From positions 2,488,750 through 2,552,749 of the forward strand of contig NZ_CP033877.1 in assembly GCF_006970445.1 (NCBI RefSeq): a stretch of 64,000 bases of DNA, given 5' to 3'. The notes under the pieces are model-generated. The model was not told the DNA's origin and ran no database searches. It saw only the letters and a program-made list of their open reading frames with translations. The position numbers and the translations under genes are program-made. Each line of letters begins with the position of its first letter. Position 1 is the first letter of the stretch. Of this stretch, positions 23,032-52,770 are shown piece after piece. This DNA is from Stenotrophomonas maltophilia. GTDB taxonomy: Bacteria; Pseudomonadota; Gammaproteobacteria; Xanthomonadales; Xanthomonadaceae.

Positions 23032-23295
23032 TCAGCCCCCGCTCACCGGCGGCAGGATCGCCACCCGGCCGTCATCGGGCAGCGCCTCGTGGTCACGCAG
23101 CACGCGCTGCTGGTCGGCAAACGCCGAATAATCCAGCAGGCCCGCGCGGAAACCCGGCCAACGCACCGGCAGCAGCTCGCGCAGCGCCTGGCGCAGATCG
23201 GCCACGGTGCCACCGGCCACATCCACGGCGATCTCGCGGCTGGCATCCAGATCTGAAAACGCGCCGAACAACTGCAGATTCACTTGTTTCATCAT
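23032..23295 (-). CDS. moaD: Molybdopterin synthase sulfur carrier subunit
   Basis: 87 residues with a ubiquitin-like fold, starting KQVNLQLFGAFSDL and ending in the conserved Gly-Gly (AILPPVSGG). The C-terminal glycine is the site of thiocarboxylate formation. Two adjacent ATGs (23295 and 23292) overlap the moeA stop; either may be used. It pairs with MoaE directly downstream. Confidence 0.93.
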   Translation of the reverse strand: MMKQVNLQLFGAFSDLDASREIAVDVAGGTVADLRQALRELLPVRWPGFRAGLLDYSAFADQQRVLRDHEALPDDGRVAILPPVSGG

Positions 23296-25552: not shown

Positions 25553-26529
25553 CCTCCGATGGAGGCCAGGTGCGGGGTCAGCCCGGTCTGGCCCTGGTGC
25601 AGTCCATGCCCGGCCGCTTTCAGGCCAAGCTGTGTGGTGATGCGTGCCAGCAGCGCGTCATGGTCATCGTCGCTCTGCAGCAGCGGGCGCAGCGGCACGC
25701 CGAACTCGCCGAACAGGCACAGCCGCAGGTCGCCCTTGGCTGTCACCCGCAGGCGGTTGCAGCCCTTGCAGAAGTCGCGCGAATACGGGGCGATGATGCC
25801 GATGCTGCCGCGATGGTCGGGGTGGCCGAACTCGCGTGCGGGGCCGGCATCAGCGGCGCGCGGCCGCTCGTGCCAGCCAGCGGCCAGCAGCTGCTCGATC
25901 ACCACGTCGGCACGCAGGTGGTGGCGCTGGAAATAGGCTTCGTTGTCGCCGGTGCGCATCAGTTCGATGAAGCGCACGCTGAAGGAGCGGTCGCGCAGGT
26001 AGTCCATCCACTGCGGCAGCTCGTCGTCGTTCAGGCCGCGCAGCAGCACCGCATTGAGCTTGATCGCCGGCAGGCCCAGCGCCTGCGCCAGGGCCAGGCC
26101 CTGCTCGATCTCCGGCAGGCGGTCATGCCCGGTGATGGTCCTGAAGCGTTCGCGCTGCAGGCTGTCCATGCTCACGTTCAGCGCGGTCAGGCCGGCGCGG
26201 TGCCAGCCCGGCAGGCGCCGCGGCAGCAGCGTGCCATTGGTGGTGATGGCCACCTTGCGGATGCCCGGCACCGCCGCCACGGTGGCGATGATCTCGTCCA
26301 GGTCCTTGCGCAGGCTGGGCTCGCCGCCGGTCAGGCGGATCTTGCTCATGCCCAACGCGGCGAACGCACGCACCAGGCGCGCGATTTCATCCACCTGCAG
26401 GAAGCGTGGGCGGCCATCGGCCTGGTAACCGTCGGGCAGGCAGTAGCTGCAACGGAAGTTGCAGGCTTCGGTCAACGACAGGCGCAGGTACGGAAAGCTG
26501 CGTCCGAAACCGTCGGTGAGTTGGCTCAT
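25549..26529 (-). CDS. moaA: GTP 3',8-cyclase
   Basis: 326 residues. The radical-SAM motif appears in SLTEACNFRCSYCLP (CxxxCxxC), followed by the SAM-binding GGEP of RLTGGEPSLRKDL, and the C-terminal second cluster in CKGCNRLRVTAKGDLRLCLF. The expected C-terminal Gly-Gly is present (LASIGG). It starts the cofactor pathway from GTP. The start at 26529 leaves a GGTGG site nine bases upstream; an earlier in-frame GTG was rejected. It heads moaA-moaCB-moeA-moaD-moaE-mobA. Confidence 0.95.
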   Translation of the reverse strand: MSQLTDGFGRSFPYLRLSLTEACNFRCSYCLPDGYQADGRPRFLQVDEIARLVRAFAALGMSKIRLTGGEPSLRKDLDEIIATVAAVPGIRKVAITTNGTLLPRRLPGWHRAGLTALNVSMDSLQRERFRTITGHDRLPEIEQGLALAQALGLPAIKLNAVLLRGLNDDELPQWMDYLRDRSFSVRFIELMRTGDNEAYFQRHHLRADVVIEQLLAAGWHERPRAADAGPAREFGHPDHRGSIGIIAPYSRDFCKGCNRLRVTAKGDLRLCLFGEFGVPLRPLLQSDDDHDALLARITTQLGLKAAGHGLHQGQTGLTPHLASIGG

Positions 26530-26636
26530 GGCTGGTCCACCTTGTTGCTCCACCGTCTTGCCTGTGCCCGGAACGGCCCGGATACCCTCGCCTGCTGGAA
26601 CGATTGCCAGAGTACGCGGCCTTCAGTTCCATGGGC

Positions 26637-26650
26637 ATGACTTAAATCAA
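26637..26650. promoter_or_regulatory. Possible FNR box upstream of moaA
   Basis: ATGACTTAAATCAA agrees with TTGAT-N4-ATCAA at eight of ten bases. Its centre lies about 114 bp before moaA, close to the 104-bp spacing of the perfect box before narK2. It also precedes the divergent gene at 26724. Confidence 0.45.
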
Positions 26651-26723
26651 TCGCGTTCGGCCCCGCGTGGCAGGCGTTGTGGCAGCATGCGGCTTTCCGT
26701 GCAGCGGGCGTGTGACAACCCTC

Positions 26724-27128
26724 ATGATGATGAACGATTTCCAGCAGCTGCTGCACGCCGCAGGCCAGCAGGCTGAACCGCAACGCCTGCTGTTCGTATT
26801 CGTGCGCGCCGAGCTGCCCGAATCGCCCACCAGCGACCAGCGCGACCGGCATGACCGCCGCGAGGGCGGCACCCTGTCGCCGGTGCTGTGCGTGGACAAG
26901 CTGCCGGCCGAGGTGCCCAGCTTCCAGGCGCTGGCGGCCGAGTCGACCACCACCGGCATCGACTGGGACCTGGTCTTCGTGGCCGCGCTGGACGGCCGCG
27001 CCGGTTTCGCCCCCAACAGCGACGAAGCCGCCCGCCCGCTGCAGCTGATGGTCAACGCCATCCACGACGGTCAGATCGGCCGCTTCGCCGCCTTCGACCG
27101 GGGCGGCGAGCCTGTTCAGTTCTATTGA
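26724..27128 (+). CDS. Conserved hypothetical protein
   Basis: 134 residues starting with three Met codons (MMMNDFQQLLHAAGQQ). It has no signal peptide or membrane span. Recognisable pieces are QRLLFVFVRAELPE, GTLSPVLCVDKLP, GIDWDLVFVAALDGRAG and MVNAIHDGQIGRFAAFDRGG. I recall close relatives widespread in pseudomonads and xanthomonads, sometimes misnamed ribonucleotide reductase alpha subunit, without proven function. It is divergent from moaA; its end overlaps the next, convergent gene by 7 bp. Confidence 0.8.
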   Translation: MMMNDFQQLLHAAGQQAEPQRLLFVFVRAELPESPTSDQRDRHDRREGGTLSPVLCVDKLPAEVPSFQALAAESTTTGIDWDLVFVAALDGRAGFAPNSDEAARPLQLMVNAIHDGQIGRFAAFDRGGEPVQFY

Positions 27129-36696: not shown

Positions 36697-37350
36697 ATGG
36701 CGAACGCAGCGCAGCCGGTCCTGGGTGGACCGGAGTTCCTCCGCCTGCTCGCCCGTCTCAGCGACGGCGCGATGCCGGCCACCAGTCCCGCCCTGACCGA
36801 TCGCCTCGGCCAGTGGGTGGACTGGAGCCGTGCCGTGGCCCTGTCCGGGGCGCTCGGCGGACGCCTGCCCGAGCCCGGTGAAGCCACTGAAGCGGTCCAG
36901 GATGTGCTGGCCGACTGCGCCCAGGCGCACGCCAGCCTGCTGGCCTCGATCCGCGAGGATGCCGAGGCCGAGCGCCTGCTGGACCTGGCCGAAGCCGCCG
37001 CTGCACCCAACTTTGCCTCACTGCGCCAGCGCTATCGGGTGCTGCAGCAGGCCATCCAGACCGCCACCGGGCGCCTGCGCGGCCGCCTGCGCGACCAACT
37101 GGTGCAGGTTTCGCCGGAGCTGGCGCGGCTGGCCGAGGTCGATGCGGTGATGGAGCAGACCCTCACCCCGCGCGAGCACAGCCTGCTGGCCACCGCGCCG
37201 GCAGTGCTCGGCGCCCGTTTTGAACGCGTGCACGGCCAGCCCGGCTGGCGCGCGGCCTTCCGCCATGACATGCGCACGCTGCTGCTCGCCGAGCTGCAGC
37301 TGCGCTTCCACCCGATCGAAGGGCTGCAAGACGCCCTGCGCTCCCACTGA
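36697..37350 (+). CDS. DUF3348 family protein, first gene of the stator-like operon
   Basis: 217 residues, cytoplasmic, helical. DUF3348 features: GPEFLRLLARLSDG, DRLGQWVDWSRAVALSGALG and a long helix block LRQRYRVLQQAIQTATGRLR ending in FRHDMRTLLLAELQLRFHPI. A TAAAAT stretch at about 36664 could be its -10 element. It is followed by DUF802 after 10 bp, then OmpA-like and DUF2894 genes with overlaps. The family has no assigned function; it is presumably an accessory of the membrane pair. Confidence 0.8.
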   Translation: MANAAQPVLGGPEFLRLLARLSDGAMPATSPALTDRLGQWVDWSRAVALSGALGGRLPEPGEATEAVQDVLADCAQAHASLLASIREDAEAERLLDLAEAAAAPNFASLRQRYRVLQQAIQTATGRLRGRLRDQLVQVSPELARLAEVDAVMEQTLTPREHSLLATAPAVLGARFERVHGQPGWRAAFRHDMRTLLLAELQLRFHPIEGLQDALRSH

Positions 37351-37360
37351 CCGGAACACC

Positions 37361-39625
37361 ATGTCCAGAACTGCTTTCCATGTCGTTGTTTTCCTTGTCG
37401 GCCTGCTGGCCGTGTGCTGGATCGGCATTGGCTACGTTTCGGTGCATCCGCTGGGTGCAGCGGTCGCGGCGATCATCGCGGCCTGCTACATCGCCGGTGG
37501 CGTGGAGCTGTACCGCTACCGCCAGGCCAGCAACGGCCTGCGCACCGCACTGAACGATCTGTCCAGCGCGAAAGAGAGCCTTGCCCCCTGGCTGGAACGC
37601 GTGCCGGTGGGCCTGCGCAACGCCGTGCGCCTGCGCGTGGAAGGCGAGCGCACTGCCCTGCCCGCACCGGTGCTGACCCCGTACCTGGTTGGCCTGCTGG
37701 TGCTGCTGGGCATGCTCGGCACCCTGCTGGGCATGATGGACACGCTGCGCGGCACCGGCCTGGCCCTGCAGAGCGCGACCGACATGGCCGCCATCCGCGG
37801 CTCGCTGGCCTCACCGGTACAGGGCCTGGCGGTGGCATTCGGCACCTCGATCGCCGGCGTGGCCAGCTCGGCCATGCTCGGCCTGCTGGCAGCGCTGCTG
37901 CGTCGCGACCGCCTGCAGGCCGTGCAGCAGCTGGACCGCGCCATTGCCGGCGACCTGCACCCGTACTCGCAGGCCTGGCAGCGCGCCGAATCGCTGCGCC
38001 TGCTGCAGGCACAGTCCGCCGCGCTGCCGGCGCTGGTCGACCGCCTGCAGGCGATGACCAGCACCTTCGAACAGCACAGTGCGGCCGCCAATGAGCGCCT
38101 GCTGACCGGCCAGGCCGAGTTCCTGACCCAGAGCCAGGCCCTGCAGGAACGCCTGGCCGTCTCGCTGCAGCAGTCGCTGCGCGAAGGGGCTGAAGCCAGC
38201 GCCGCCGCCATCGGTGGCGCGCTGCAGCCGATGGCCGAGACCACGCTGGCCGGCTTGGCCCACCATGGTGAGGCGCTGCATGCTCGTGTCGAGCAGGCGG
38301 TGCAGCAGCAGTTGTCTGGCCTGAGCGACGGTTTCGAGCGCAGCCGCGTCGCCACCGAAGCCAGCTGGGCCAAGGTGGTGATCGAGCAGACCCAGGCACA
38401 ACAGGCGCTGGTGAGTGATCTGCGTCAGCACCTGCAGGCCTTCAGCGATGGCCAGGCCACGCATGCCGAAGCGCTGGTCACACGTATCGGCGAGCGCCTG
38501 CAGGCCGATGCACAGGGCAATGCGGAGGCCTTGCGTGCCGCCGCCGAACAGCAGCAGGCCCTGAACAGCGCGCTGGTCGAGCGCCAGCAGCAGGCGCTGC
38601 TCGCAGCCGGCCAGCAGCTGGACGAGCACGCGCAGGCCTTGCTGCAGGCACTGGAGCAGCGCCACAGCGCCAGCCAGTCGCTGCTGCAGGACCACGAACA
38701 ACAACGCTCGCAGCAGTGGCAGGCCGCGCAGGCCGCCGCCGCCACCGCGCACGCCGAACTGCAGGCCAGCCTGGACAGCCGCGAGCAGCAGCGCCAGGCG
38801 CGCTGGGACGCGGTCAGCGCCGAACTGCAGCAGGCCCACGCCACGCTGCAGGCGCAGCTGCAGGCCGGCGATGAACAGCGCCTGCAGCGCTGGAGCGATG
38901 CCTTGCAACACGTTTCCACCGACCTGGCCGAGCGCCTGCAGGCCAACGGCGAACGCCTGGCCGCGCAGCAGCGGCAGGTCTGCGACACGCTGGCCGAGAC
39001 CGCACAGCAGATCGGCGAGAACGGTCGCGCGCAGGCCAGCGCCACGCTGGCCGAAGTGTCCACCCTGCTGCAGACCGCGGCGGCGGCACCGAAAGCTGCT
39101 GCCGACGTCATCAACGAGCTGCGCAGCACGCTCTCTGAAAGCCTGGTGCGTGACAACGCGATGCTGGAAGAACGCGGACGCCTGCTGGCCACCGTGCAGA
39201 CCCTGCTCGATGCGATCAACCATGCCTCGCACGAGCAGCGCACCGCCGTGGACGCGCTGGTCGGCGGTTCGGCCGAGCTGCTGGAACGCGTCGGCAACCG
39301 CTTCACCGACCATATCGCCGCCGAGACCGGCAAGCTGGATGGCATTGCGGCAGCGCTCAACGGCAGCGCCGGTGAAGTCGGCCAGCTGGCCGGCACCTTC
39401 GGCGAGGCGGTCGCGCAGTTCGGCAGCGCCTCCACCGAGCTGTCCGGCCGCCTGGAACAGATTGGCGGTGCTCTGGATGCCTCGCTGGCCCGCAGCGATG
39501 AGCAGCTGGCCTATTACGTGGCGCAGGCGCGCGAGGTGGTCGACCTCAGCCTGCTGTCGCAGAAGCAGGTGATGGAAGAACTGCAGCAGTTGGCCACGCG
39601 CCGCGGCAAGGCCGGTAGCGCATGA
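37361..39625 (+). CDS. DUF802 protein: MotA/ExbB-like membrane unit with a ~570-residue coiled-coil tail
   Basis: 754 residues. Membrane helices lie near 5-25, 32-50, 105-127 and 153-181. The last two carry an ExbB/MotA-like pattern: LVGLLVLLGMLGTLLGMMDT, then about 30 residues on, GSLASPVQGLAVAFGTSIAG and VASSAMLGLLAALL. From about residue 190 to the end there is a very long Gln-, Ala- and Glu-rich region of coiled coil, with many repeats of QQAL, ERQQQ and LQA type. The gene overlaps the OmpA-like gene by 4 bp. The layout (stator A unit with long cytoplasmic tail) is like ZorA of Zorya systems, but neighbours differ. Function unproven. Confidence 0.8.
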   Translation: MSRTAFHVVVFLVGLLAVCWIGIGYVSVHPLGAAVAAIIAACYIAGGVELYRYRQASNGLRTALNDLSSAKESLAPWLERVPVGLRNAVRLRVEGERTALPAPVLTPYLVGLLVLLGMLGTLLGMMDTLRGTGLALQSATDMAAIRGSLASPVQGLAVAFGTSIAGVASSAMLGLLAALLRRDRLQAVQQLDRAIAGDLHPYSQAWQRAESLRLLQAQSAALPALVDRLQAMTSTFEQHSAAANERLLTGQAEFLTQSQALQERLAVSLQQSLREGAEASAAAIGGALQPMAETTLAGLAHHGEALHARVEQAVQQQLSGLSDGFERSRVATEASWAKVVIEQTQAQQALVSDLRQHLQAFSDGQATHAEALVTRIGERLQADAQGNAEALRAAAEQQQALNSALVERQQQALLAAGQQLDEHAQALLQALEQRHSASQSLLQDHEQQRSQQWQAAQAAAATAHAELQASLDSREQQRQARWDAVSAELQQAHATLQAQLQAGDEQRLQRWSDALQHVSTDLAERLQANGERLAAQQRQVCDTLAETAQQIGENGRAQASATLAEVSTLLQTAAAAPKAAADVINELRSTLSESLVRDNAMLEERGRLLATVQTLLDAINHASHEQRTAVDALVGGSAELLERVGNRFTDHIAAETGKLDGIAAALNGSAGEVGQLAGTFGEAVAQFGSASTELSGRLEQIGGALDASLARSDEQLAYYVAQAREVVDLSLLSQKQVMEELQQLATRRGKAGSA

Positions 39626-40260
39626 GCGACGAGCTGGAGGTCGACGGCGGCTCACACGCCCCGATCTGGGCCGCCTTTGGCGACCTGATGTCGGTGCTGC
39701 TGGGTGCGTTCGTGCTGATACTCGTCGGTGTTGTCGCCGTGCAGCTGGAGCTGTCGCAGCGGCTGGACCAGGAAGTGAAGCAGCGCCAGGCCGAAGCCAA
39801 GCGCCTGCAGACCCTGGAGCAGGCACTGGCCGGCCCGCTGGCCGCCGGTCGCGTGACGCTGGTGGATGGCCGCATCGGCATCAGCGGCAGTGTGCTGTTC
39901 GCGCTGAACTCCGATCAGCTGCAGCCGGAAGGCCAGGAGCTGCTGCGCAGCCTGGCCGCGCCGCTGGCCGCCTACCTGGGCAGCCGCGAAGAGATCCTGA
40001 TGGTCAGCGGCTTCACCGATGACGCGCCGGTGCGCGAAGGCAACCGTCGCTTTGCCGACAACTGGGAGCTGTCCGCACAGCGATCGCTGACCGTGACCCG
40101 CACCCTGATCGCCGATGGCATACCGGCCGACGCGGTGTTCGCCGCCGCGTTCGGCAGCGAGCAGCCGGTCAGCTCCAATGCCAGCGAAGACGGCCGCGCG
40201 CGCAATCGTCGCGTGGAGATCGCGCCGATTGCCAAGCCCAAGGCCCCGGATGCCAAGTAA
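39622..40260 (+). CDS. OmpA/MotB-like peptidoglycan-binding stator partner
   Basis: 212 residues. One membrane span at 16-40 begins with WAAFGDLMSVLLGAFVLILV; Asp21 is placed like the ion-carrying Asp of MotB and ExbD. A short coiled linker (QRQAEAKRLQTLEQAL) leads to an OmpA-like domain (about 70-205) with ISGSVLFALNSDQLQPEG, MVSGFTDDAPVREGNRRFAD and NWELSAQRSLTVTRTL. Such domains bind peptidoglycan. It overlaps the DUF802 gene by 4 bp and the DUF2894 gene by 11 bp, so all three are made together. Confidence 0.85.
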   Translation: MSDELEVDGGSHAPIWAAFGDLMSVLLGAFVLILVGVVAVQLELSQRLDQEVKQRQAEAKRLQTLEQALAGPLAAGRVTLVDGRIGISGSVLFALNSDQLQPEGQELLRSLAAPLAAYLGSREEILMVSGFTDDAPVREGNRRFADNWELSAQRSLTVTRTLIADGIPADAVFAAAFGSEQPVSSNASEDGRARNRRVEIAPIAKPKAPDAK

Positions 40261-40627
40261 GCCGCCCGCACTGGAAGGCCTGCGCGCACTGGTGCGCGAC
40301 CTCGATGCGGGGTCGCGCTCGCTGCCGCATTACCCGCAGGTGCCCATGCTGCAGCAGGTACAGCGCGAGTGGTCGGAGCTGCGCAGCGAGCTGCAGGTGC
40401 GCCGTTCGCTGCGCACCGAAGCCCCGGCCGACGGCGGCCCGTTGAACTCGGCGGTGCTGGTGCAGCGCATGCTGGACACGATGCAGGCGACCAGCCCCGG
40501 TTACCTGCGCCACTTCATCGACTACGTGGACACCCTGTCCTGGCTGCAGGCACTGCAGGATGGCGCCGCCAGCGGCGGGGATGCCGCGAAACCGAAGCGC
40601 ACGCGCAAGCCGCGCAACGCGGGTTGA
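40250..40627 (+). CDS. DUF2894 family protein
   Basis: 125 residues, cytoplasmic and basic at its C terminus (KPKRTRKPRNAG). DUF2894-like parts: LEGLRALVRDLDAGSRSLPH, LQQVQREWSELRSELQVRRS, and GYLRHFIDYVDTLSWLQALQ. It starts within the end of the OmpA-like gene. It always travels, as far as I recall, with DUF3348, DUF802 and OmpA-like genes; its job is unknown. Confidence 0.75.
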   Translation: MPSKPPALEGLRALVRDLDAGSRSLPHYPQVPMLQQVQREWSELRSELQVRRSLRTEAPADGGPLNSAVLVQRMLDTMQATSPGYLRHFIDYVDTLSWLQALQDGAASGGDAAKPKRTRKPRNAG

Positions 40628-40808: not shown

Positions 40809-40940
40809 CTGTCTAGCGCACCATTTTCACGTTGACCCACGGCGCCTGCAGCGCCCGCGGTCGCATCGATTGCCTCCCTTTTCGAACTCCATGAGCTCCG
40901 CGCCCGTGCGGTGGCTCGTGCCTGCCTGAGTGTCCGTAAC

Positions 40941-43259
40941 ATGACGAAGACTTTGTTGGCCGCTGCGCTGTCGATCGCGCTCGCTCCCGCGGCCTGGGCG
41001 CAGGATGCTGCCCCGACCTCCAGCACGCCCTCCGCCACCAACCTCGATGCGGTCTCTGTGATCGGCAGCGGCGAAGCGCGCCAGGTGCAGCGCATCACCC
41101 GCGAGAACCTCGATATCCTGCCGCCGGGTACCAGCCTGCAGAAGACCCTGAACCTGCTGCCGGGCGTCAACGCCCAGTCGGCCGATGCGCTGGGCACCAA
41201 CGAGCAGTCGATGACGCTCAGCCTGCGCGGCTTCAACTCCACTCGCCTCGGCTACACGCTGGACGGTGTGCCGCTGGGCGATGGTGCGTACAACAACTAC
41301 AACGGCCTGACCATCAACCGTGCGCTGATCAGCGAGAACATGGCCGGCGCCGAGCTGGCGGTGGGTATCGGCAGCCTCGGCACGCCGTCCACCAGCAACC
41401 TCGGCGGCACCATCTCGTATACCTCCGACCGCCCGGCCCAGGAACTCGGCGGCCGCGTGGTGCAGACCTTCGGCAGCGATGCCAACCGCCGTACCTTCGT
41501 GCGCGTGGACAGCGGCGAGTACAACGGTTTCTCCGGCTACGTCTCCGGCATGAATGCCGTCTCCGATCTGTGGAACGACCAGACCGCCTACAACACGTCC
41601 ACCACCAAGCAGTTCAATGCCAAGGGCGTGTGGAACTTCGGCCGCGGCCAGATCACCGGCTTCATCGATACCTCGCGGACCACGCAGGCTGACTACTTCT
41701 ACCTGTCCAAGGACGAGATGTCGCGCGGCCTCGGCTGGGACTGGGGCGGCTACGCGCCGGACTGGAACAAGGCCGTGGCCAAGGCCTACTGCAATACCGC
41801 CAGCCTCAATGCGAAGAAGTGCGACAACAGCGGCCCGGACAAGGACGCCGATGGTGCCTTCACCGCCGGGCAGATCCTGCGTGACGACAACCTGTACTAC
41901 CTGGCTGGCGATTTCTTCCTGGCCGATGGCTTCAGCCTGCGCGCCCTGGCCTACCACCACGATGACCGCGGCGAAGGCCACAACTGGAACAGCGGCGCCT
42001 GGTCGAACAAGGGCACGGCGCAGGAGATCCCGATCATCTTTCGCAACACCATCTACACCATCGACCGCGATGGCGGCACGCTGTCGTTCGACTGGGAACT
42101 GGGCGCACATCGCATCGAAGGCGGCGTCTGGTACGAGCGCAACACCAGCAGTGCCGAGCGCTACCAGACCGCCGTGGATGGGCCGCGTGACCTGAGCGGC
42201 ATGAACACCCTGCCCTCCGATGTCGGCGTGTTCGCCCAGCGCACGCGCTGGAAGACCCATCAGTTCTTCCTGAAGGACACCTGGCGCCTGCTCGATGAAC
42301 GCCTGACCCTGGAGTTTGGTGCCAAGAGCCCGCATGCCACCTCCGATGCACAAGCACTGCCGGGCGACGCGAAGACGCCGATCTCGCCGGCCTCGAACAA
42401 CCAGTTCGCCACCGGTTCGTTGAAGGCCAGCAAGAACTTCCTGCCCAGCGTCGGCGCCAACTTCCGCCTGGCCGAGCACCACGAGATCTTCGCCAGCTAC
42501 GCCGAGAACATCGCCATGTTCCAGGGCGGCTTCAAGCTGGGCCCGCAGGCGGTCAGCCAAGCCACCTGGAATGCGCAGGGCAACCTGAAGCCGGAGGAAT
42601 CGCGCTCGCTCGAAGCCGGCTACCGCTTCGTCACCGATACCCTGCAGGCGTCGATCGCGGCCTACAACGTGCGCTTCGACAACCGCCTGCTGCAGTACAA
42701 CCCCTGCGATTCGCGGCAGCCGGTCGGCCCGACCTGCGGCAACCGCTTCTACAACGTCGGCGGCGTCGACAGCCGCGGTGCCGAGCTGACCGTACTGTGG
42801 ACCCCGAACGAGCACTTCAGCTGGTACACCTCGGCCTCGCTGAACCGTTCGACCTACGCCTCCAACTACGTGCAGGCCGGTGTCGAGCAGCAGATCAAGG
42901 GCAAGATCCAGACCGATACGCCCAAGCAGCTGCTGGCCACGGAGATCACCTGGCGCGACAACGGCTGGTTCGCCAGCCTGCGTGGCAAGTACACCGGCGA
43001 ACGTTTCTACACCTACACCAACGACCAGGGCTTCGGCGGCTTCACCGTGTTCGATCTGGCCGGTGGCTATGACTTCGGCCAGATCGGCTTCGCCAAGGGC
43101 ATGCGCCTGTCGTTCAACGTGACCAACCTGACCAACAAGCGCTACGCCAGCAACCTGGATTCGAGCGTGTTCGCGCCCAGCGACCCGGCCGGCAAGCTGT
43201 ACGTGTTCCATGCCTCGGCACCGCGCCAGGTGTTCGGTACGATCGACCTTCGCTTCTGA
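40941..43259 (+). CDS. TonB-dependent receptor paired with a phytase-like protein
   Basis: 772 residues. Signal peptide: MTKTLLAAALSIALAPAAWA. The plug domain (about 35-170) has LNLLPGVNAQSADALGTNEQ and SLRGFNSTRLGYTLDGVPLG; the barrel ends in Leu-Arg-Phe (FGTIDLRF). It imports an unknown ligand. The next gene encodes a phytase-family secreted protein and follows after 21 bp, suggesting that the pair handles a phosphorylated compound such as phytate; a possible Pho box upstream agrees with that. It shows no close resemblance to catecholate siderophore receptors and is not beside the ent cluster promoter. Confidence 0.85.
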   Translation: MTKTLLAAALSIALAPAAWAQDAAPTSSTPSATNLDAVSVIGSGEARQVQRITRENLDILPPGTSLQKTLNLLPGVNAQSADALGTNEQSMTLSLRGFNSTRLGYTLDGVPLGDGAYNNYNGLTINRALISENMAGAELAVGIGSLGTPSTSNLGGTISYTSDRPAQELGGRVVQTFGSDANRRTFVRVDSGEYNGFSGYVSGMNAVSDLWNDQTAYNTSTTKQFNAKGVWNFGRGQITGFIDTSRTTQADYFYLSKDEMSRGLGWDWGGYAPDWNKAVAKAYCNTASLNAKKCDNSGPDKDADGAFTAGQILRDDNLYYLAGDFFLADGFSLRALAYHHDDRGEGHNWNSGAWSNKGTAQEIPIIFRNTIYTIDRDGGTLSFDWELGAHRIEGGVWYERNTSSAERYQTAVDGPRDLSGMNTLPSDVGVFAQRTRWKTHQFFLKDTWRLLDERLTLEFGAKSPHATSDAQALPGDAKTPISPASNNQFATGSLKASKNFLPSVGANFRLAEHHEIFASYAENIAMFQGGFKLGPQAVSQATWNAQGNLKPEESRSLEAGYRFVTDTLQASIAAYNVRFDNRLLQYNPCDSRQPVGPTCGNRFYNVGGVDSRGAELTVLWTPNEHFSWYTSASLNRSTYASNYVQAGVEQQIKGKIQTDTPKQLLATEITWRDNGWFASLRGKYTGERFYTYTNDQGFGGFTVFDLAGGYDFGQIGFAKGMRLSFNVTNLTNKRYASNLDSSVFAPSDPAGKLYVFHASAPRQVFGTIDLRF

Positions 43260-43280
43260 TTGACCGACCGGAGTCCACTG

Positions 43281-44738
43281 ATGCTCACGACCGCCCTGCT
43301 GCTGGCCACCCTCTCTGCCAGCGGATACTCCGCTCCGCATGAGGCGACGGGCGCACCGCCGCGCACCCTGCAGTTGGGCGGTCGCACCTATGTGGACAAA
43401 GGCCTGGTCGCCGCCGGGCGGCTGCCGGCGGGCACGGTGGACTTCCTGGGCGACACGCTGGGCTCGTTCTCGTCGCTGGCGGTACACCCCGGCACCTGGA
43501 AGCGCACCGCCAACGGCTACGAAGGCGTGCTGTGGACCCTGCCCGACCGCGGCCGCAACGATCCAGAGGCCGGCCTGTTCTACGACTACACCGGCCGCGT
43601 GGAGCGCATGCAGCTGCGCATCGACCTTTCCCCGGGCAAGCCCGAGCTTGGCACGCTGACGATGGTGCCCGACAAGGGCGTGGTACTGATGGATTTCAAC
43701 GGGCAGCCGTTCACCGGTGCCGACCCGGGTGACCACACGGTCACCCAGCGCCAGGTGGTGCTGCCCTCGCCCGCCTGCGGCGCCGGTGCGGGCAAGGTCT
43801 CGCTGGATGCTGAGTCACTGCAGTTCACCGCAGATGGCCACTTCTATATCGGCGACGAGTACACCGCCAACGTCTACTACTTCGATGCGCAGGGCCAGTT
43901 GCAGGGTGTGATCGTGGCGCCGCCCGCGATCCGTCCGCAGCGTGAGGGCACGCCGGCGTTCGGTTCGCTGGCGCCACCGCAGACCGGCCGACGCAACAAC
44001 CAGGGCGTGGAAGGCATGGGCCTGTCACCCGACGGCACCCGCCTGTTCGTCGCCCTGCAGAGTGCAACGCTGCAGGACAGTGCGCAGGGCAACGCGGCGG
44101 GCCGCATCAACACCCGCGTACTGGTCTACGACGTGACGGCCTCGCCGACGCCACAGCAGCCGATCGGCCATTACGTGATGGCCCTGCCCGCCTACGCGCA
44201 CGACGGCAAGGGCAAGCTGGACCGCACCGCCGCGCAGAGCGAGCTGCGCGCGCTGGACGACCATCGCTTCCTGCTGCTGGCCCGCGACGGCAACGGGCTG
44301 GGCAAGGACGGCGATGATCCGATCGTCTACAAGTCGGTGCTGCTGGTGGATCTGGCCGATGCCAGCAACCTGGCAGGAAGCAACTATGAGTCCGGTACGG
44401 CCTCGGTGCTGGCCGACCCGGCGGGCACCGTGTTGAAGGACGGCATCGTGCCCGCACGCAGCGACGAACTGCTGAACCTGCTCGACCGCCCGCAGCTGGC
44501 CCGTGCCGGGCTTGATCTGGACACCAAGCGCGGCCCGCATGCCGGACTGCTCTCGGAAAAGTGGGAAGCCATGGACGTGCTGCCAGCGCTGGACCCCCAG
44601 CATCCGAACGACGTACTGCTGCTGATCGGCAACGACAACGACTTCATCGCCCGCCACTGCCGCATGCAGGGCCAGGCCTGCGACAGTCCGTACGACAACG
44701 ACAACCGCGTGCTGGTGTACCGCCTGACGCTGCCCTGA
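43281..44738 (+). CDS. Secreted esterase-like phytase-family protein
   Basis: 485 residues with a signal peptide (MLTTALLLATLSASGYSA). It belongs to the esterase-like activity of phytase family (six-bladed propeller, as I recall it): FSSLAVHPGTWKRTANGYEG, VLWTLPDRGRNDPEAGLFYD, ESLQFTADGHFYIGDEYTAN, NQGVEGMGLSPDGTRLFVAL and the C-terminal VLLLIGNDNDF. Several acidic loops (GDEY, DRGRND) could bind calcium. It would act in the periplasm or outside the cell on a phosphate ester, in partnership with the receptor upstream. Start at 43281 has GGAG eight bases upstream. Confidence 0.8.
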   Translation: MLTTALLLATLSASGYSAPHEATGAPPRTLQLGGRTYVDKGLVAAGRLPAGTVDFLGDTLGSFSSLAVHPGTWKRTANGYEGVLWTLPDRGRNDPEAGLFYDYTGRVERMQLRIDLSPGKPELGTLTMVPDKGVVLMDFNGQPFTGADPGDHTVTQRQVVLPSPACGAGAGKVSLDAESLQFTADGHFYIGDEYTANVYYFDAQGQLQGVIVAPPAIRPQREGTPAFGSLAPPQTGRRNNQGVEGMGLSPDGTRLFVALQSATLQDSAQGNAAGRINTRVLVYDVTASPTPQQPIGHYVMALPAYAHDGKGKLDRTAAQSELRALDDHRFLLLARDGNGLGKDGDDPIVYKSVLLVDLADASNLAGSNYESGTASVLADPAGTVLKDGIVPARSDELLNLLDRPQLARAGLDLDTKRGPHAGLLSEKWEAMDVLPALDPQHPNDVLLLIGNDNDFIARHCRMQGQACDSPYDNDNRVLVYRLTLP

Positions 44739-45592: not shown

Positions 45593-46351
45593 TCAGCCGC
45601 GCAGGGTGGCGCCGCCGTCGACGTACAGGTCACTCATCGCCACATGTCCGGCCTGTTCGGAGAGCAGGAACATCACCGAGTGCGCGATGTCCTCGGGGGC
45701 GGCCAGCTTGCGCAGCGGAATGCCGGCCTTGTAAGTCTCCAGGTTGCCGGCGATCACCCGCTCGGCACCCCGTTCGTCCTGCCACATGCCGGTCTGCATC
45801 GGGGTCAGCGTCGATCCCGGGGCGACGATGTTGCAGCGGATGCCCAGCGGCGCCAGCTCCAGCCCGAGGCAGCGGGTGAACATCGTGGCGGCGGCCTTGG
45901 ATGCCGCATAGGCGGCCATGCCATGCCGCGGCACGCCGGCCGCATTCGAGCTGACGGTAACGATCGCGCCCTGCCGGCGCGGCGACATCACCCGCGCCAG
46001 TGCACGACCGACATGGAACACGCCATCGGCATTGACTGCAAACACCCGGCGCCAGTCGTCATCGCCGGTCTCGGTGACACCGCCCACATGCAGTACCCCG
46101 GCCACGCTGGCGGCCAGCGCGATTGGCCCGATGCTGGATTCGACCTGATCCACCAAGGCGTCCACCGCGGCGCTGTCGGTCACGTCGAGCGCGAACGACC
46201 TGACCCGCGTATCGGCCACGTGTGGCGCCTCACGATCGGTCGCCACCACCGTGCAGCCGGCCTCGGCCAACAGCCGTACCAGCGCCTCACCGATGCCGCC
46301 GGATGCACCGGTCACCAACGCCACGCGGCCCTCGAAACCGGTCAACTGCAT
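45593..46351 (-). CDS. entA: 2,3-dihydro-2,3-dihydroxybenzoate dehydrogenase
   Basis: 252 residues of the short-chain dehydrogenase family: cofactor loop VALVTGASGGIGEALVRLL, the NAG-like strand SVAGVLHVGG, catalytic Ser in VTVSSNAAGVPRHGMAAYAA with Tyr-x3-Lys (YAASK), and CNIVAPGSTLTPMQTGMW, a segment shared with EntA. It oxidises the last intermediate to 2,3-dihydroxybenzoate. It overlaps entF by 10 bp and is the last gene of the cluster. Confidence 0.93.
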   Translation of the reverse strand: MQLTGFEGRVALVTGASGGIGEALVRLLAEAGCTVVATDREAPHVADTRVRSFALDVTDSAAVDALVDQVESSIGPIALAASVAGVLHVGGVTETGDDDWRRVFAVNADGVFHVGRALARVMSPRRQGAIVTVSSNAAGVPRHGMAAYAASKAAATMFTRCLGLELAPLGIRCNIVAPGSTLTPMQTGMWQDERGAERVIAGNLETYKAGIPLRKLAAPEDIAHSVMFLLSEQAGHVAMSDLYVDGGATLRG

Positions 46352-49300
46352 GTTGCGATCTCCTGCTGCTCATCCCATTGGTGCAACCGCGCCGACAACC
46401 ACGGCGCCAGCTGCGCCACCGCATCGCGCCCGGTCAGTTCTGCGTGCATGAACGGCAATTCCATCGCCTGCACCTTGCGCGCATGCGTCCGCCACAGCGC
46501 CGACTGCAGCTGTGGTCGCGCCTGGTGATCACGCCCCGCACGCACGTGGATCAGCGTGCCATCGAATGGCTGGTGGATATGTTCGCGGATCAGTCGATTG
46601 GTGCCGGTCACGGCGCGCACCACCCCATCCAGCACGACGTCCGGCAGGCTACCCAGCGCGCTGCCGCCACGACGCAGGAACGCAAGAATGCGTTCCCGGC
46701 TGTCCAGTTCCGGATGCGCATCTGGGTCATGACCGGCAATCGCCAGCAGTGCCCGCAATGCGGCGATGGGATCGGGTTCCGGCTCGGCCCGCCAGCACTC
46801 GCTGGGATAGGCGTCCAGCAGCACCAGTTCGCCGACTTCGCGGCCGATCTCATGCAGGCGCACCGCCATCGCCTGGGCGAGGATGCCACCTACCGACCAG
46901 CCCAGTAGATGCACCGCCCCCTTCGGTTGCAATGCGACCACGCGCTGTACGTAGTCGTTGGCCATCGCCTCGATGCTGCTCGGCAGCGGCTGCCGCGCGT
47001 CCAGTGCGGGCGACTGCAGGCCATACACCGGGCGTGCCGGCTGCAGTGCCCGGGCCAGGGTGCGGTAGTTCCAGGCGATGCCACCGGCCGGGTGCAGCGC
47101 GAACAGTGGCGTAGGCCCGGCAGCGTCGGTCGCGGCCAGCGCGATCACCGGCCCCAGTGCGTGATCGGCCAGCGCGGGCGGCTCGGTAATACGAACCGCC
47201 AGCGCGGCCACGGTGGGCTGCGCAAACAAGGCACCCAGACCCAGATCGCAGCGCCAGCGCTGCTCGATCGCCAGCAGCAGGTGCACCGCCGACAGCGAGT
47301 CACCGCCGAGACTGAAGAAGTCCGCATCCACCGCCACTGGCACCTCACGCCCGAGTGCCTGGGCGAACAGCACCGCCAGCTCCTGTTCCAACGGCGTGCG
47401 CGGTGCCAGTCCAGCGACCTCATGCTGTGGTGGTTTCGGCAACGCGTTGCGGTCGAGCTTGCCGTTGGCGGTCACCGGCCAGTGGTCCACGCCGACGAAT
47501 GCCGAGGGCACCATGTAGTCCGGCACGCGCGTGGCCAGGTGGCTGCGCAGCATCACGACATCGGCAAGCGCGGTCGGCACATACGCCACCAGACGCGCTT
47601 CGCCGGGAGCATCCTGGCGCAACAGCACTTCCACCCGTTCCATGCCGGGCAGTTCGCGCAGTGCTGCCTCGATCTCACCCAACTCGATGCGCAGACCGCG
47701 CAACTTCACCTGATGGTCGCTGCGGCCCAGGTACTCCACCGCACCATCGCGGCGCCAGCGCGCCACGTCGCCGGTGCGGTAGATGCGCTCGCCCGGCAGG
47801 AAAGGATCCGCAAGAAAGCGCTCCGCAGTGAGATCATCGCGACCGAGATAGCCGCGTGCCAGCTGCACCCCGCCCAGGTACAGGTCACCCGCCACACCCA
47901 CCGGCACCGGCTGCATCCGGGCGTCCAGTACGTACAGGCGGGTATTCCAGACCGGGAACCCGATCGGCACCGGCCGCGAATGATCCTGCGCCGACGCCGG
48001 CCAGTAGCTGACATCCACTGCGGCCTCGGTCGGGCCATACAGGTTGTGCAGTTCTGCGTGCATGCGCCCATGGAAGCGGTCGCGCAACGCGGCGTCCAGC
48101 GCCTCGCCACTGGTGAATACCCGGCGCAGCTGCAGCCCTGCCGAGGCCGGCGCAGCGAGGAAGGCATCGAGCATCGACGGCACGAAATGCGCCGTGGTGA
48201 TGCCATGCCCACGGATCAAACGCGCCAGTTCAGTGGGATCGCGGTGCGCGTCGGGCCCGGCGACCACCAGCGTGGCCCCGCACAGCAGTGGCAGGAAGAA
48301 TTCCCAGACCGAGACATCGAAGGTCGCCGGGGTCTTCTGCAGCACACGGTCATCGGCGCGGATGCCGTAGTGCTCGCGCATCCACAGCAGGCGGTTGACG
48401 ATGGCGCGATGTTCGATGACCACGCCTTTCGGCTCGCCGGTCGAACCGGAGGTATAGATCACATAGGCCGCATCGCTGGGTGCAGGATCGGCCCACGGCG
48501 CCGCGAAGCTCAGCGCGGTCCACTGCTCGGGCGCGAGCACCGGCACACCAGCCATGCGCGCCGAAACCTCCGTCGCAGCCAGTACGCAGACCGGCTGCGC
48601 CGAGGCGAGGATACGTGCCAGCCGCTCGTCAGGATGGGCAAGGTCCAGCGGAAGGTAGGCGGCTCCGGCACGCAGCACCGCCAGCAGCGCGATCACCAGC
48701 TCCAGCGAGCGCGGCAATGCCACCGCCACCACGCTGCCCGGGCCGACATCCATTGCCCGCAGCTGTGCCGCCAGCGCGAAACTGCGCGCTTCCAGCGTTG
48801 CGTAATCCAGCGTAGTGTCGCCGAACACCAGCGCCGGCGCGTGCGGATCCCGATCCATGCCCTGCTGCAGCAGCTCGACCAGGGTCGTCTCCGGCAGCGC
48901 GTGCGCGGTGGCATTGAATTCCTGCAGCACCTGCTGCGCCTCCTCGGGCGTCGCCAGGGGCACGGCTGCGATATCGTCAGCCTGCAGCGCCGCCGACACG
49001 AAATGCAACAGCCGCGCCGCGTGCGCCTCGACATCCTCACGACTGTACAGCGCGGGATTGGCCTCGATCTCCAGATCCAGCAGCGCCTGGCCATCGCCAC
49101 GGAAACCCAGCGTCAGGTCATCCACCGGCCCGGTGCACAGCACCTGCAGCGCCGCTTGCACGCCGGGCAGGGCCAGCGGCTTGTAGAACGGCTGCACATT
49201 CACCAGCGGACCATGCAGCCGCTGCTGCGTGCCGACCAGACCGAGATCACGACGCAGCTGCTCTCCGCGGTAGCGGCCGTGCTTGCGACCCTGGCTGAGC

Positions 49301-50232
49301 TGCCGGCCCAGCCCACGGGTAAAGGCCTCGACGCTGCCCTCGCCAGCCGCCACGCGCAGCGGCAACACATTCATCACCATCGCCGGCACCCGCGCCGACG
49401 CATTGCCGAGCCGCCCCATGTAAGGCACGCCCAGCACCACTTCATCGGCCGCGCTCATCCGTCGCAGATACTCGGCGGCGAGCGCGGCCAGTACATCCGG
49501 CCACGGCTGCAGCCAACGTACCGATGCCTGCAGCAACTGCTCACGGAATGCCACATCGAGCGGCTGCACCCAGCGCAGCGCGTCGTCACTGGCCGCGAGC
49601 GTGCCGGCCAGGCCCACGCCTGCCGGTGCGCCCTGCATGTGCTCACGCCACCACTGCCCGGCCTGCGCGCGGCGCGGATCGGCACGATAAGCGGCATCAT
49701 CGGCCAGCACGCCCGCCAGCTCCGGCAGGGACTCACCGGTACGACCGGCATACACCGCGCACACGCGATCAGTGAACAGCGCCATGCCGTATCCATCGGC
49801 CGCCAGATGATGCACGCGCAGGTACCAGACCCAACGCTGTCCGCCCAGATCGAACAACACCTGCTGGCTGATCCGGTCGCGGGTCGGATCGACCGCGCTG
49901 AGCCGGTCGGCCTGCATCAGGCTGCGGGCCGCAGCGGCGGGATCCGCCTCGGCGGAAACATCACGCACCGAAAGCCGCGGCACGTGCGCCGGGTCATGCC
50001 ACTGCAACGGCTGGCCGTCGGGCCCCTCGGCAAAGCGCAGTGCGAAGGCCTGGGCTTCGACCGCTGCCTGGTCTGCTGCGGCGACGAACGCGGCCACATC
50101 CAGCGGACCGTCGATCCACACTGCATGTGCGGTATTGAACGACGGATTGCCCGGTGCCAGCCGCTGTGCGAACCACAGTCCGGCCTGGGCCTCGGTCAGT
50201 GCCACCGGCGTGGCCAGCGCGGCGGTGTTCAT
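46342..50232 (-). CDS. entF: Nonribosomal peptide synthetase of the siderophore (C-A-PCP-TE)
   Basis: 1296 residues with the module order of E. coli EntF. Condensation domain: active-site HHLAADG at about 141-147. Adenylation domain: DAAYVIYTSGSTGEPKGVVI near 590-610, with later YRTGDVARW. Carrier domain: FFSLGGDSLSAVHLL near 975, where Ser takes the phosphopantetheine. Thioesterase: LLGWSVGGILAQAM near 1110. It would link dihydroxybenzoate to an amino acid (serine in enterobactin) and release or cyclise the product. The start at 50232 overlaps the carrier gene by 4 bp. Confidence 0.95.
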   Translation of the reverse strand: MNTAALATPVALTEAQAGLWFAQRLAPGNPSFNTAHAVWIDGPLDVAAFVAAADQAAVEAQAFALRFAEGPDGQPLQWHDPAHVPRLSVRDVSAEADPAAAARSLMQADRLSAVDPTRDRISQQVLFDLGGQRWVWYLRVHHLAADGYGMALFTDRVCAVYAGRTGESLPELAGVLADDAAYRADPRRAQAGQWWREHMQGAPAGVGLAGTLAASDDALRWVQPLDVAFREQLLQASVRWLQPWPDVLAALAAEYLRRMSAADEVVLGVPYMGRLGNASARVPAMVMNVLPLRVAAGEGSVEAFTRGLGRQLSQGRKHGRYRGEQLRRDLGLVGTQQRLHGPLVNVQPFYKPLALPGVQAALQVLCTGPVDDLTLGFRGDGQALLDLEIEANPALYSREDVEAHAARLLHFVSAALQADDIAAVPLATPEEAQQVLQEFNATAHALPETTLVELLQQGMDRDPHAPALVFGDTTLDYATLEARSFALAAQLRAMDVGPGSVVAVALPRSLELVIALLAVLRAGAAYLPLDLAHPDERLARILASAQPVCVLAATEVSARMAGVPVLAPEQWTALSFAAPWADPAPSDAAYVIYTSGSTGEPKGVVIEHRAIVNRLLWMREHYGIRADDRVLQKTPATFDVSVWEFFLPLLCGATLVVAGPDAHRDPTELARLIRGHGITTAHFVPSMLDAFLAAPASAGLQLRRVFTSGEALDAALRDRFHGRMHAELHNLYGPTEAAVDVSYWPASAQDHSRPVPIGFPVWNTRLYVLDARMQPVPVGVAGDLYLGGVQLARGYLGRDDLTAERFLADPFLPGERIYRTGDVARWRRDGAVEYLGRSDHQVKLRGLRIELGEIEAALRELPGMERVEVLLRQDAPGEARLVAYVPTALADVVMLRSHLATRVPDYMVPSAFVGVDHWPVTANGKLDRNALPKPPQHEVAGLAPRTPLEQELAVLFAQALGREVPVAVDADFFSLGGDSLSAVHLLLAIEQRWRCDLGLGALFAQPTVAALAVRITEPPALADHALGPVIALAATDAAGPTPLFALHPAGGIAWNYRTLARALQPARPVYGLQSPALDARQPLPSSIEAMANDYVQRVVALQPKGAVHLLGWSVGGILAQAMAVRLHEIGREVGELVLLDAYPSECWRAEPEPDPIAALRALLAIAGHDPDAHPELDSRERILAFLRRGGSALGSLPDVVLDGVVRAVTGTNRLIREHIHQPFDGTLIHVRAGRDHQARPQLQSALWRTHARKVQAMELPFMHAELTGRDAVAQLAPWLSARLHQWDEQQEIATCS

Positions 50233-50486
50233 GCGTTCTGCGCGGCCTGCAGCGTCTGCACCACACCCCACCACTGGCGCAGCGTGGTGTGTTCGGCCAG
50301 CTGCGAGAACTCCAGCGGCAGGCCGGTGTTGCCCCAGGCCAGGACCAGGCCGAGCATGCGCATCGAATCCAGGTCCAGATCGATCAGGTTGTCGTCGTCA
50401 CCGATCTCGGCCGGCGTACATTCCAGAACGCGCGCCACGTCGGCACGCATCCGCTCCAGATCCAGCATCTCACCCGTGGCAGCCAT
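50229..50486 (-). CDS. entB': Stand-alone aryl carrier protein (EntB C-terminal equivalent)
   Basis: 85 residues: DLERMRADVARVLECTPAEI, then LIDLDLDSMRMLGLVLAWGN, with Ser in the DSM motif as the phosphopantetheine site. In E. coli this domain is fused to the isochorismatase in EntB; here it is a separate gene overlapping the isochorismatase stop. It carries activated dihydroxybenzoate from EntE to EntF. Confidence 0.9.
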   Translation of the reverse strand: MAATGEMLDLERMRADVARVLECTPAEIGDDDNLIDLDLDSMRMLGLVLAWGNTGLPLEFSQLAEHTTLRQWWGVVQTLQAAQNA

Positions 50487-51118
50487 CACAGCACCTCCAG
50501 CAGCTGATCGGTGGTCATCGGCACACCGGAGGTGCGCGCGATCCAGTGCAGCGCCTGATCGTGGTCGGCGCGCGAGAAATCCGCCACCGCATCGGCGGCG
50601 ATGAACGCCTCGATATCACGCTGGAACGCCTCGACCACGGTCGCGGTGCAGCCGATATGGGCGTAAACGCCGGTCACCAGCAACTGGTCGCGCCCACGCA
50701 CCCGCATCAGCGTTTCCAGGTTGCTGCGCTGGAATGCGCTGTAGCGATGCTTCACCAGCACGTGCTCGCCCGGCTGCGGTGCCAGTGCCTCGATGATCGG
50801 TTCATGGTCGGCGCTGCGGCGCATGCCCGGCCCCCACAGGTCGGCCTGAAGGCCACGGTCGCGACGGTCCTGGTCACCGTGCTGGGCGGTGTAGAACACC
50901 GGAATGCCGTGCGCGCGGCAGTGCGCCAGCAGGCGCACGATATTGTCCACTGCCGGCCGCAGCGGTGCGCTGCCTGCATCGAAGGCAGCCAGAAAGTAGC
51001 GCTGCATGTCGTGTACCAGCAGCGCAACGCGATCACGCTTCGGGCGCCACGGGCCGCGCGCCTGTGGCAGCTCTGCGGCAGTCGGCAAGGGGTAATCGGT
51101 GATACGGGGCAGCGCCAT
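50486..51118 (-). CDS. entB: Isochorismatase (EntB N-terminal equivalent)
   Basis: 210 residues. The start [20 protein letters not shown] and core LLVHDMQRYFLAAF (catalytic Asp), PGEHVLVKHRYSAFQRSNLE (Lys) and LLVTGVYAHIGCTATVVEAF (Cys) match the isochorismatase family. The protein ends where EntB of E. coli would continue into the carrier domain. It makes 2,3-dihydro-2,3-dihydroxybenzoate. It overlaps both entE and the carrier gene by one to a few bases. Confidence 0.93.
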   Translation of the reverse strand: MALPRITDYPLPTAAELPQARGPWRPKRDRVALLVHDMQRYFLAAFDAGSAPLRPAVDNIVRLLAHCRAHGIPVFYTAQHGDQDRRDRGLQADLWGPGMRRSADHEPIIEALAPQPGEHVLVKHRYSAFQRSNLETLMRVRGRDQLLVTGVYAHIGCTATVVEAFQRDIEAFIAADAVADFSRADHDQALHWIARTSGVPMTTDQLLEVL

Positions 51119-52770
51119 CAGCGCGTTCCTCCTGTCTGTTGCAGATGACGCGCACGCAGTTGCGCGCGCAGTTCGCGGCGGCTGATCTTGCCGACCGCAG
51201 TGGTATCGAAACTGTCGACGAACACGACCTGGTCGGGCACCTTGAACGCCGCCAGGCCGCGCCCGCGCATCCAGGACTTCAGAGCCGGTGCCTTGAACGG
51301 CTCGCCCTGCGCGATCACGAACGCACAGCTGCGCTCGCCCAGATACTCATCGGGAATGGAGACCACGGCGGCATCAAACACGCCGGGGTGCGCCAGCAGA
51401 TGGTCTTCGATCTCTTCGGCGGAGATCTTCTCGCCCGCACGGTTGATGTGGTCACCGGCGCGGCCCTGCACCACCAGGTAGCCTCCGGGCAGCTGCTGCA
51501 CACGGTCGCCGGTGCGATAGAAGCCGTCGTCGGTGAACGAGCGCGCATTGGCCACCGCGTCGTTGTGGTAGCCACGGATGGTGTATGGGCCACGGGTGAG
51601 CAGATGCCCCACCTCGCCTTCGGCCACCGGCTGGTCATTGTCATCGACCACGCGCACCTCGTCGTCCGGACTGATCGGCCGGCCCTGGCAGGCCACGATC
51701 AGTTCCTCCGGATCATCCAGCCGCGTGTAGTTGACCAGGCCTTCGGCCATGCCGAACACCTGCTGCAGCGTGCAGCCCAGGCCGTCGATCACCCGTCGTG
51801 CCGCTTCCGGCACCAGTTTGGCACCGCCCACCTGCAGTACCTGGAGGCTGGACAAGTCATGCTTGCTGGTGGCGGCCGCCTGCGCCCAAAGCAGCGCCAG
51901 CGGCGGCACCAGTCCGCAGCAGGTCACCTTCTCGCGGGCGATCAGCGGGAAGGCCGCATCCGGACCGGGGCCAGGGCTGAGCACCACGCGGGCGCCGGCA
52001 TACAGTGCGCCGAAGAAGCCCGGCGAACTCATCGGGAAATTGTGCGCGGCCGGCAGGGCGACCAGATAGACGCTGTCGCGGTCGATGCCGCAGAGGTCAT
52101 TGCTCGCGCGGAACGAGTAGATGTAGTCGTCGTGGGTACGTGGAATCAGCTTGGACAGCCCGGTGCTGCCTCCGGAAATCTGCAGGAACGCCACCGACTG
52201 CGGGTCCGGATCGGCCGGCAACTGGCTGCGATCGCCCTGCAGTGCCTCCAGCGCGACGAACTCCACCGCATCGCCGTCGATCACCACATGGCGAACCGCC
52301 GGCACCTCGGCCTGCAGCGCCCGTGCCAGCCCGCGATGATCGAAGCCATCGTGCAGTGCGGTGGTGATGTAGGCACTGGCTTCGGCCTTGCTGGCGAAGT
52401 GCACCAGCTCGGTGATGCGGTGCGCCGGCAACGCGTACACCGGCACCAGCCCGGCGCGGAACAGTCCACAGACCGTGCTGATGAAGCCTGCCGTGTTGCC
52501 CAGCTGCACCAGCACCCGCTCTCCGGGCTGCAGGCCGAGCGCCAGCAGGCCGGCACCGATCCGCCCGGCCTCGTGCCACAGCTGCGCATAGCTCAGGCGC
52601 ACGTCGCCGGCAACCACTGCGATGTCATCGGCGAATCGTTCCGCCCGTTCGCGCAGGAACGCCGGGAAGGTCTCGCCACGCCAATGACCGGCCTCGCGAT
52701 AGCGCGCCATCAGCGCGTCGGGCCACACCTGCTGCAGTGGCAGGCGGGAGGAATCAGCGGAAGCACTCAT
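51118..52770 (-). CDS. entE: 2,3-dihydroxybenzoate-AMP ligase
   Basis: 550 residues of the aryl-adenylating family: [20 protein letters not shown] (nucleotide loop), [20 protein letters not shown] (substrate-binding His-Asn region of DhbE/EntE), [35 protein letters not shown] and the C-terminal Lys region [15 protein letters not shown]. It activates dihydroxybenzoate and loads it on the carrier protein. It overlaps entC by 4 bp. Confidence 0.95.

Follow-up and report, generated by a model that had tools for sequence, protein, structure and literature searches.

Zorya types I and II share a ZorA/ZorB motor, and ion flow, peptidoglycan binding and the ZorA tail have been reported to be important for the function of both types (PMC11890865). 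In type I, a bound Na+ ion has been reported, with threonine and serine at the helix-4 site (PMC11890865). The name Zorya type III dates from 2021 and arose from a set of 6,401 gene pairs (PMC8565338; the text of that paper also uses the term "zorBC pairs"). According to the same report, a type III system from Stenotrophomonas nitritireducens lowered the plaquing of at least one phage when placed in E. coli and protected E. coli liquid cultures against PVP-SE1 (PMC8565338). Gene names are used here as in PADLOC-DB, where DUF3348 is ZorG and DUF2894 is ZorF; the 2021 paper has the two names the other way round, with DUF3348 as ZorF and DUF2894 as ZorG (PMC8565338).

The 64,000-nucleotide stretch of Stenotrophomonas maltophilia DNA analysed here (the window) belongs to a genome assembled as a single contig of 4.55 Mb. 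An earlier note, written from the letters of this stretch alone, had singled out four closely packed genes as an undescribed, stator-like envelope machine. An ORF check of the window returned the four frames on the plus strand at that place, 36697-40627 (Table 1), and the packing was as the note had said, with a 10-bp gap between zorG and zorA, a 4-bp overlap between zorA and zorB and an 11-bp overlap between zorB and zorF. All four products matched the PADLOC models for Zorya type III (E from 0 to 1.6e-69), and the type III scores of ZorA and ZorB far exceeded those of the PADLOC-DB type I and type II models. On these profile matches the locus is almost certainly a Zorya type III system, zorGABF, sharing its four gene families and their arrangement with the systems described in 2021 (PMC8565338), the window copy being distinguished by a short ZorF. 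The word "undescribed" has to be withdrawn, as the system to which all four proteins match is a known one that had been both named and tested against phage by 2021 (PMC8565338).

Table 1. Coordinates of the zor genes and of the parts of ZorA in the window.
Feature	Position	Strand	Detail
zorG (DUF3348)	36697..37350	+	217 aa; PDLC00658 2.4e-76; PF11828 1.4e-58
zorA type III (DUF802)	37361..39625	+	754 aa; PDLC00647 E=0, 1084.6 bits
ZorA residues 1-228, transmembrane motor part	37361..38044	+	profile match 8vvn_C 4.9e-5
ZorA residues 229-495, rod, varies between species	38045..38845	+	3.665-residue periodicity, tandem-unit gain/loss
29-residue rod unit, ZorA residues 446-474	38696..38782	+	absent from relative L042
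ZorA residues 496-754, conserved distal tip	38846..39622	+	dN/dS 0.076 vs rod 0.155
zorB type III	39622..40260	+	212 aa; PDLC00651 1.3e-114; PF00691 OmpA 8.1e-18
zorF (DUF2894)	40250..40627	+	125 aa; PDLC00654 1.6e-69; PF11445 3.4e-25

The same organization recurs in other genomes. From 548 confirmed loci we named the best 80, ranked by similarity to the window ZorB, a choice that biases the set towards close kin; the nearest named relatives are S. maltophilia and its kin. All four genes were found in 75 of the 80 named loci (four had no ZorG match and one no ZorF match), and in each of these 75 the order was G-A-B-F. The 4-bp overlap of zorA and zorB was kept in 78/80 loci and the 10-bp gap between zorG and zorA in 63/76. 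As order and junctions recur across the named loci, the arrangement is not due to chance.

We compared the two motor proteins with structures of the Shewanella type I system. The profile match of ZorA to the type I chain 8vvn_C covers the TS of helix 4, and three ion-site residues of ZorA, T121, T162 and S163 (codons at 37721, 37844 and 37847), are near invariant, at 0.99 of 78 rows. ZorB has one transmembrane helix that carries Asp21 (codon 39682-39684), followed by a periplasmic OmpA domain (residues 92-196, 39895-40209) of the peptidoglycan-binding kind that the earlier note had described. It could be aligned with 8qyd_F (query 12-168 on chain 17-173) and with 8vvn_B (query 12-210 on chain 15-236), and from the start of the latter alignment Asp21 corresponds to the published Asp24 of Shewanella type I ZorB (PMC11890865). 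In the type II structure the aspartate is likewise reported at position 21 (PMC11890865). Conservation of Asp21, which had been set beforehand as a test of the stator reading, proved complete, the residue being present in 81/81 ZorB rows. Together with the PADLOC type III models, the 8vvn and 8qyd matches bear out the proposed ZorA/ZorB-type stator design with a long tail. Two details of the DUF802 product differ from the earlier description: the Pfam DUF802 match (4.5e-6) falls on residues 321-373, in the cytoplasmic tail rather than the membrane part, and the MotA_ExbB match, at 20.9 bits, lies slightly below its cut-off of 22.9 bits. We also considered reading the choice between Na+ and H+ from the helix-4 threonine and serine, as in type I, and rejected this, since these residues do not decide it.

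Other known systems can be set beside the window locus. With type I it shares the ZorA/ZorB pair, the aligned aspartate, the TS of helix 4, the long tail and the OmpA domain; it differs in that none of its four proteins matched ZorC or ZorD, and the suggestion that two soluble partners stand in their place was upheld, the partners being DUF3348 and DUF2894. With type II (ZorABE) it shares the ZorA/ZorB motor, whereas a search of the same four proteins gave no match to the HNH nickase ZorE, and the window ZorA is longer than that of S. kujiense type II, where the tail is reported to span residues 100-378 (PMC11890865). The flagellar stators MotAB and PomAB likewise have a membrane aspartate and an OmpA-type periplasmic domain (3khn, PomB and MotB in the PDB), and the window system differs from them by its extra rod and its DUF3348 and DUF2894 partners. 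Values of dN/dS were 0.038 for ZorB, 0.095 for ZorF, 0.115 for ZorG and 0.116 for ZorA, against 0.057 and 0.046 for flanking genes, so that ZorB resembles its flanking genes and ZorG and ZorA stand at about twice their level, which counts against the anti-phage motor reading given below; the ratios point to purifying selection on all four zor genes.

Behind the motor, ZorA consists of a rod that varies between species and a conserved distal tip. Among 12 sequences of the S. maltophilia group, dN/dS of the motor part was 0.090, between the values for tip and rod (Table 1). Across 76 ZorA proteins the mean hydrophobic period was 3.665 residues in the rod, close to 11/3, and 3.58 in the tip; the rod peak lay at 3.64-3.69 in 75/76, and its power exceeded that of every shuffled rod in 76/76. 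Strong tandem repeats were present in 21 of the 76 tails and in none of 380 shuffled tails, with dominant repeat lengths of 22, 29, 40, 51, 62, 69, 87, 124 and 131 residues. At 3.635 residues per turn, the eight lengths other than 124 deviate from whole turns by at most 0.066 turn, a fit equalled by 2 of 200,000 random sets, and with 124 included the worst deviation is 0.089 turn, equalled by 0 of 200,000; these figures overstate the case, as the tests were chosen post hoc and the periods are partly dependent, some being multiples of others (87 = 3 x 29, 124 = 2 x 62). In our reading, a module of about 29 residues would combine two stretches of 11 residues with one of 7.

Lengths of whole proteins tell of the same units. 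The ZorA of relative L042 has 725 residues compared with 754 in the window, exactly one 29-residue unit less. Of the 75 ZorA proteins longer than 650 residues in the named loci, 15 have exactly 698, and these are spread over Dyella, Rhodanobacter, Luteibacter, Xanthomonas and Burkholderiales. In the genus of P. xenovorans, loci were fetched for 40 of the 108 carriers and 39 gave a complete ZorA, of which 33 fell within one residue of the series 698 + 87n, with n from 0 to 4; the longest rods carry up to 348 extra residues, or four 87-residue units. The six off-series lengths were 720, 749, 756, 756, 843 and 908, and among these 756 and 843 equal 698 plus two and five units of 29, 720 and 749 equal 698 plus 22 and 51, and 908 has no reading as 698 plus repeat units. 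The simplest reading of these lengths would be that rod units are duplicated and lost, and are retained only where the helical register holds, which is what one would expect if the rod were a continuous, load-bearing coiled coil. In this the type III tail, varying by units, differs from types I and II, for which component size is described as well conserved within each type (PMC11890865). One named locus departs from the intact form: in the metagenome-assembled genome L046 (8090-10000) the ZorA frame has 595 aa and ends 123 bases short of ZorB, which points to either a broken gene or a wrong assembly; close relatives have intact copies.

The two soluble partners were examined by structure prediction and by profile searches. 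AlphaFold2 predicted ZorG with good confidence to be all-helical, with nine helices and no strands (pLDDT 86), and a fold search gave no significant match for it; the predicted model of ZorF was weak (pLDDT 68). The window ZorF is a short form that covers positions 105-184 of the 185 in PF11445 and thus lacks roughly the first 100 positions of the DUF2894 model. Proteins under 150 aa made up 16 of the 79 ZorF in the named loci, 14 of them in one Stenotrophomonas clade (99/95) and two in Luteibacter, and the N-terminal part has apparently been lost twice. The last 25 residues of ZorF carry a mean net charge of +5.3, and at least +2 in 80/80 proteins; a tail this basic suggests binding to nucleic acid or to phospholipid. 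Family profile searches found no nuclease or helicase family in the four operon proteins, a contrast with types I and II, and for this reason the effector step of type III probably differs from that of types I and II and cannot simply be copied from them.

We then turned to the distribution of the system. Of 91 species genomes of Stenotrophomonas, 88 carry a ZorB orthologue (E below 1e-90) and 87 have DUF3348; in seven of these 87 the DUF3348 gene was matched as two neighbouring pieces, and none of the matches contained an internal stop. The missing ZorG of one genome (G030) is explained by its ZorA sitting at a contig end. ZorA, too, is missing from the three genomes without ZorB, which are G016 (3.4 Mb), G021 (3.0 Mb) and G070 (2.9 Mb, 76% complete), and genome size does not explain the loss, since five carriers have only 3.2 to 3.4 Mb. 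ZorA was found in 108 of 117 genomes sampled from the genus of P. xenovorans (L096), with one real copy each and a second match (E 9.8e-4) in a single genome. HSDR_N, a type I restriction subunit that served as the control, was present in 47/91 of the Stenotrophomonas genomes and 54/117 of those from the genus of P. xenovorans. Judged by these counts, the zor system behaves like a core gene rather than a patchy one in both genera, the only two that were sampled in depth, other genera being covered thinly. More broadly, 70 of 198 genomes of the family to which the window belongs carry the system, and these represent 18 of 54 genera; at class level it was present in 8 of 370 genomes, four of these from that same family.

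Defence systems do not typically come as close to fixation as this one does in two genera of different orders, where a restriction gene reaches only about half of the genomes; such a spread would suit a housekeeping role equally well and counts against an anti-phage reading. The alternative would be a core envelope machine, in which the motor mainly senses the envelope or works on it (peptidoglycan or membrane stress), while the protection seen in E. coli would be a side effect of over-expression or of sensing the envelope. The low dN/dS of ZorB, close to that of its flanking genes, would agree with this, as would ordinary flanking genes and neighbours that are common within clades. So would the records of mobile elements: a phage collection held no ZorB orthologue (its 10 weak matches had less than 40% identity, and eight of these covered the OmpA part alone), and of 27 records with DUF3348 in a plasmid collection, each of the 20 listed is a Burkholderiales replicon of at least 589 kb. 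Against it stand the protection of E. coli by a type III copy (PMC8565338), the anti-phage function reported for the related types I and II (PMC11890865), and the fact that the system can be lost: besides the three Stenotrophomonas genomes, ZorA is absent from 6 of 8 genomes of up to 6.0 Mb in the genus of P. xenovorans, compared with 3 of 109 larger ones, and we take the system to be dispensable on this ground. On balance we regard an envelope machine as a possible but unlikely explanation.

The near-fixed state of the system in the two genera also differs from the account given in 2021, in which the new Zorya types, type III among them, are said to be patchy at genus level and to occur in diverse contexts (PMC8565338). 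That account would favour a mobile accessory defence system, acquired by transfer and lodged in defence islands, and so would the rarity of the system at class level and the finding that, among the 80 loci, neighbours differ between clades. The gene tree has one feature of this kind: the Burkholderiales copies form a single clade (100/100) drawn beside the copies of Rhodanobacteraceae, a placement that makes an old transfer likely. For the rest, the branching of the 77-row tree agrees in the main with genera, requiring 10 changes for 8 groups where the least possible is 7 and the shuffled mean is 43.7; three Stenotrophomonas rows are placed elsewhere, through weak deep branches. One contig filed as Bacillus subtilis SK7B5 (L049) bears a Stenotrophomonas-type zor operon that falls in the main clade of that genus as sister to L048, and its label is very likely the result of assembly contamination.

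The neighbourhoods likewise speak against mobility. Genes flanking the operons are mostly ordinary ones of metabolism, transport and regulation, and in a plain count over 134 flanking proteins, two padloc families were matched, by one protein each. In the window, none of the 10 proteins nearest the operon matched a padloc family, and the padloc families matched at 1e-10 by the other 49 window proteins include no Zorya model. Enrichment in defence islands, which the earlier note had named as a thing to look for, was not seen in these flanks. Models of MADS type (mad2, mad3 and mad8) do match window proteins, with best E from 1.4e-12 to 2.2e-30, and these proteins are not among the 10 nearest the operon; upstream, at 11000-27000, lie nitrate reductase and molybdenum cofactor genes, an ordinary chromosomal setting. 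With the system nearly universal in both genera and the tree tracking genera, a mobile accessory system is already weakened as an explanation, and we consider it improbable. Our reading is that these genera keep type III Zorya as core immunity, passed on for the most part vertically.

Downstream of the operon the window has a TonB receptor gene and, further on, siderophore-type genes, and these could be taken to indicate an export, gliding or nutrient-uptake motor of the MotAB, ExbBD/TolQR or GldLM-like kind that shares the Zorya shape by chance. Conservation of the neighbours does not extend to the receptor, however, for which matches of at least 93% occur in 8 of the 80 loci and any match at all in 17, and the neighbour clusters examined showed no gene for a substrate or receptor that is conserved from genus to genus. 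Flagellar MotB, MotD and MotS models of NCBIfam scored far below their curated cut-offs among the best 25 of 40 (for example, 93.1 of 283 bits), and the partners that are conserved are DUF3348 and DUF2894. We therefore hold a chance resemblance of this kind to be very improbable. Next to the operon, at 40911-44738, the TonB receptor gene is accompanied by one for a phytase-like esterase; the two have no match in the loci of some close relatives (L036, L037, L041 and L042), so that a short stretch that varies adjoins an operon that is fixed. The enterobactin-like siderophore genes, at 45593-52770, encode a short-chain dehydrogenase, a large NRPS, an isochorismatase and an AMP-binding enzyme.

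Taken together, the explanation we favour is that zorGABF encodes a motor with a shaft that serves as core immunity, to which we would give a probability of about 0.6. By analogy with the published structures and mutants of types I and II, a ZorA5B2 complex would sit idle in the inner membrane until a phage punctures the envelope, whereupon ZorB would grip the peptidoglycan, ions would pass Asp21 and turn ZorA, and the rod would carry this motion into the cytoplasm. Among the present results, it is the OmpA family match of ZorB (8.1e-18) that bears on such an assembly, on ion flow and on binding to peptidoglycan. What we add to that scheme is that the rod may act as a transmission shaft, whose length can change only in steps of the helical register, and that the conserved tip may be where the work is done, as the site of action of ZorG and ZorF. 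That this motor and shaft operate as an anti-phage device we consider reasonably probable. The parts given to the soluble partners are a guess, and a doubtful one: ZorF might bind nucleic acid near the injection site through its basic tail, with ZorG as an adaptor. We also advance, as a tentative idea that may well prove wrong, a wider view of type III as a core, nuclease-free, envelope-anchored rotary machine rather than a mobile, nuclease-type defence, with a shaft built of modules of about 29 residues that changes length only in register and thereby has a species-specific reach into the cytoplasm.

Functional tests of type III in the literature searched amount to one heterologous phage assay, that in E. 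coli, and one native knock-down screen, and no assay of the window locus was found there. In the screen, CRISPRi was used in B. cenocepacia K56-2 to knock down predicted defence systems, Zorya III among them, and fitness against phage Bcep176 is reported to have been unchanged (PMC12584637), an outcome that counts against our favoured explanation and would suit an envelope machine. Transcription was changed for the first one or two genes of the operons, and the authors give several reasons why a real system might be missed (PMC12584637).

In the literature searched we found no statement on core status or on modules in the ZorA tail for type III, nor did we find there the three results added here, namely a spread like that of a core gene, the lack of a recognised nuclease and a rod built of modules. 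Together these three make the mechanism testable. Near-fixation in two genera raises the question of whether a core motor serves as standing immunity or has a day job in the envelope. Growth of the rod in steps that preserve register provides a natural experiment that bears on the rigidity of the tail as a shaft, and the shaft model, if true, would reveal a way for an ion motor to pass a mechanical signal far into the bacterial cell.
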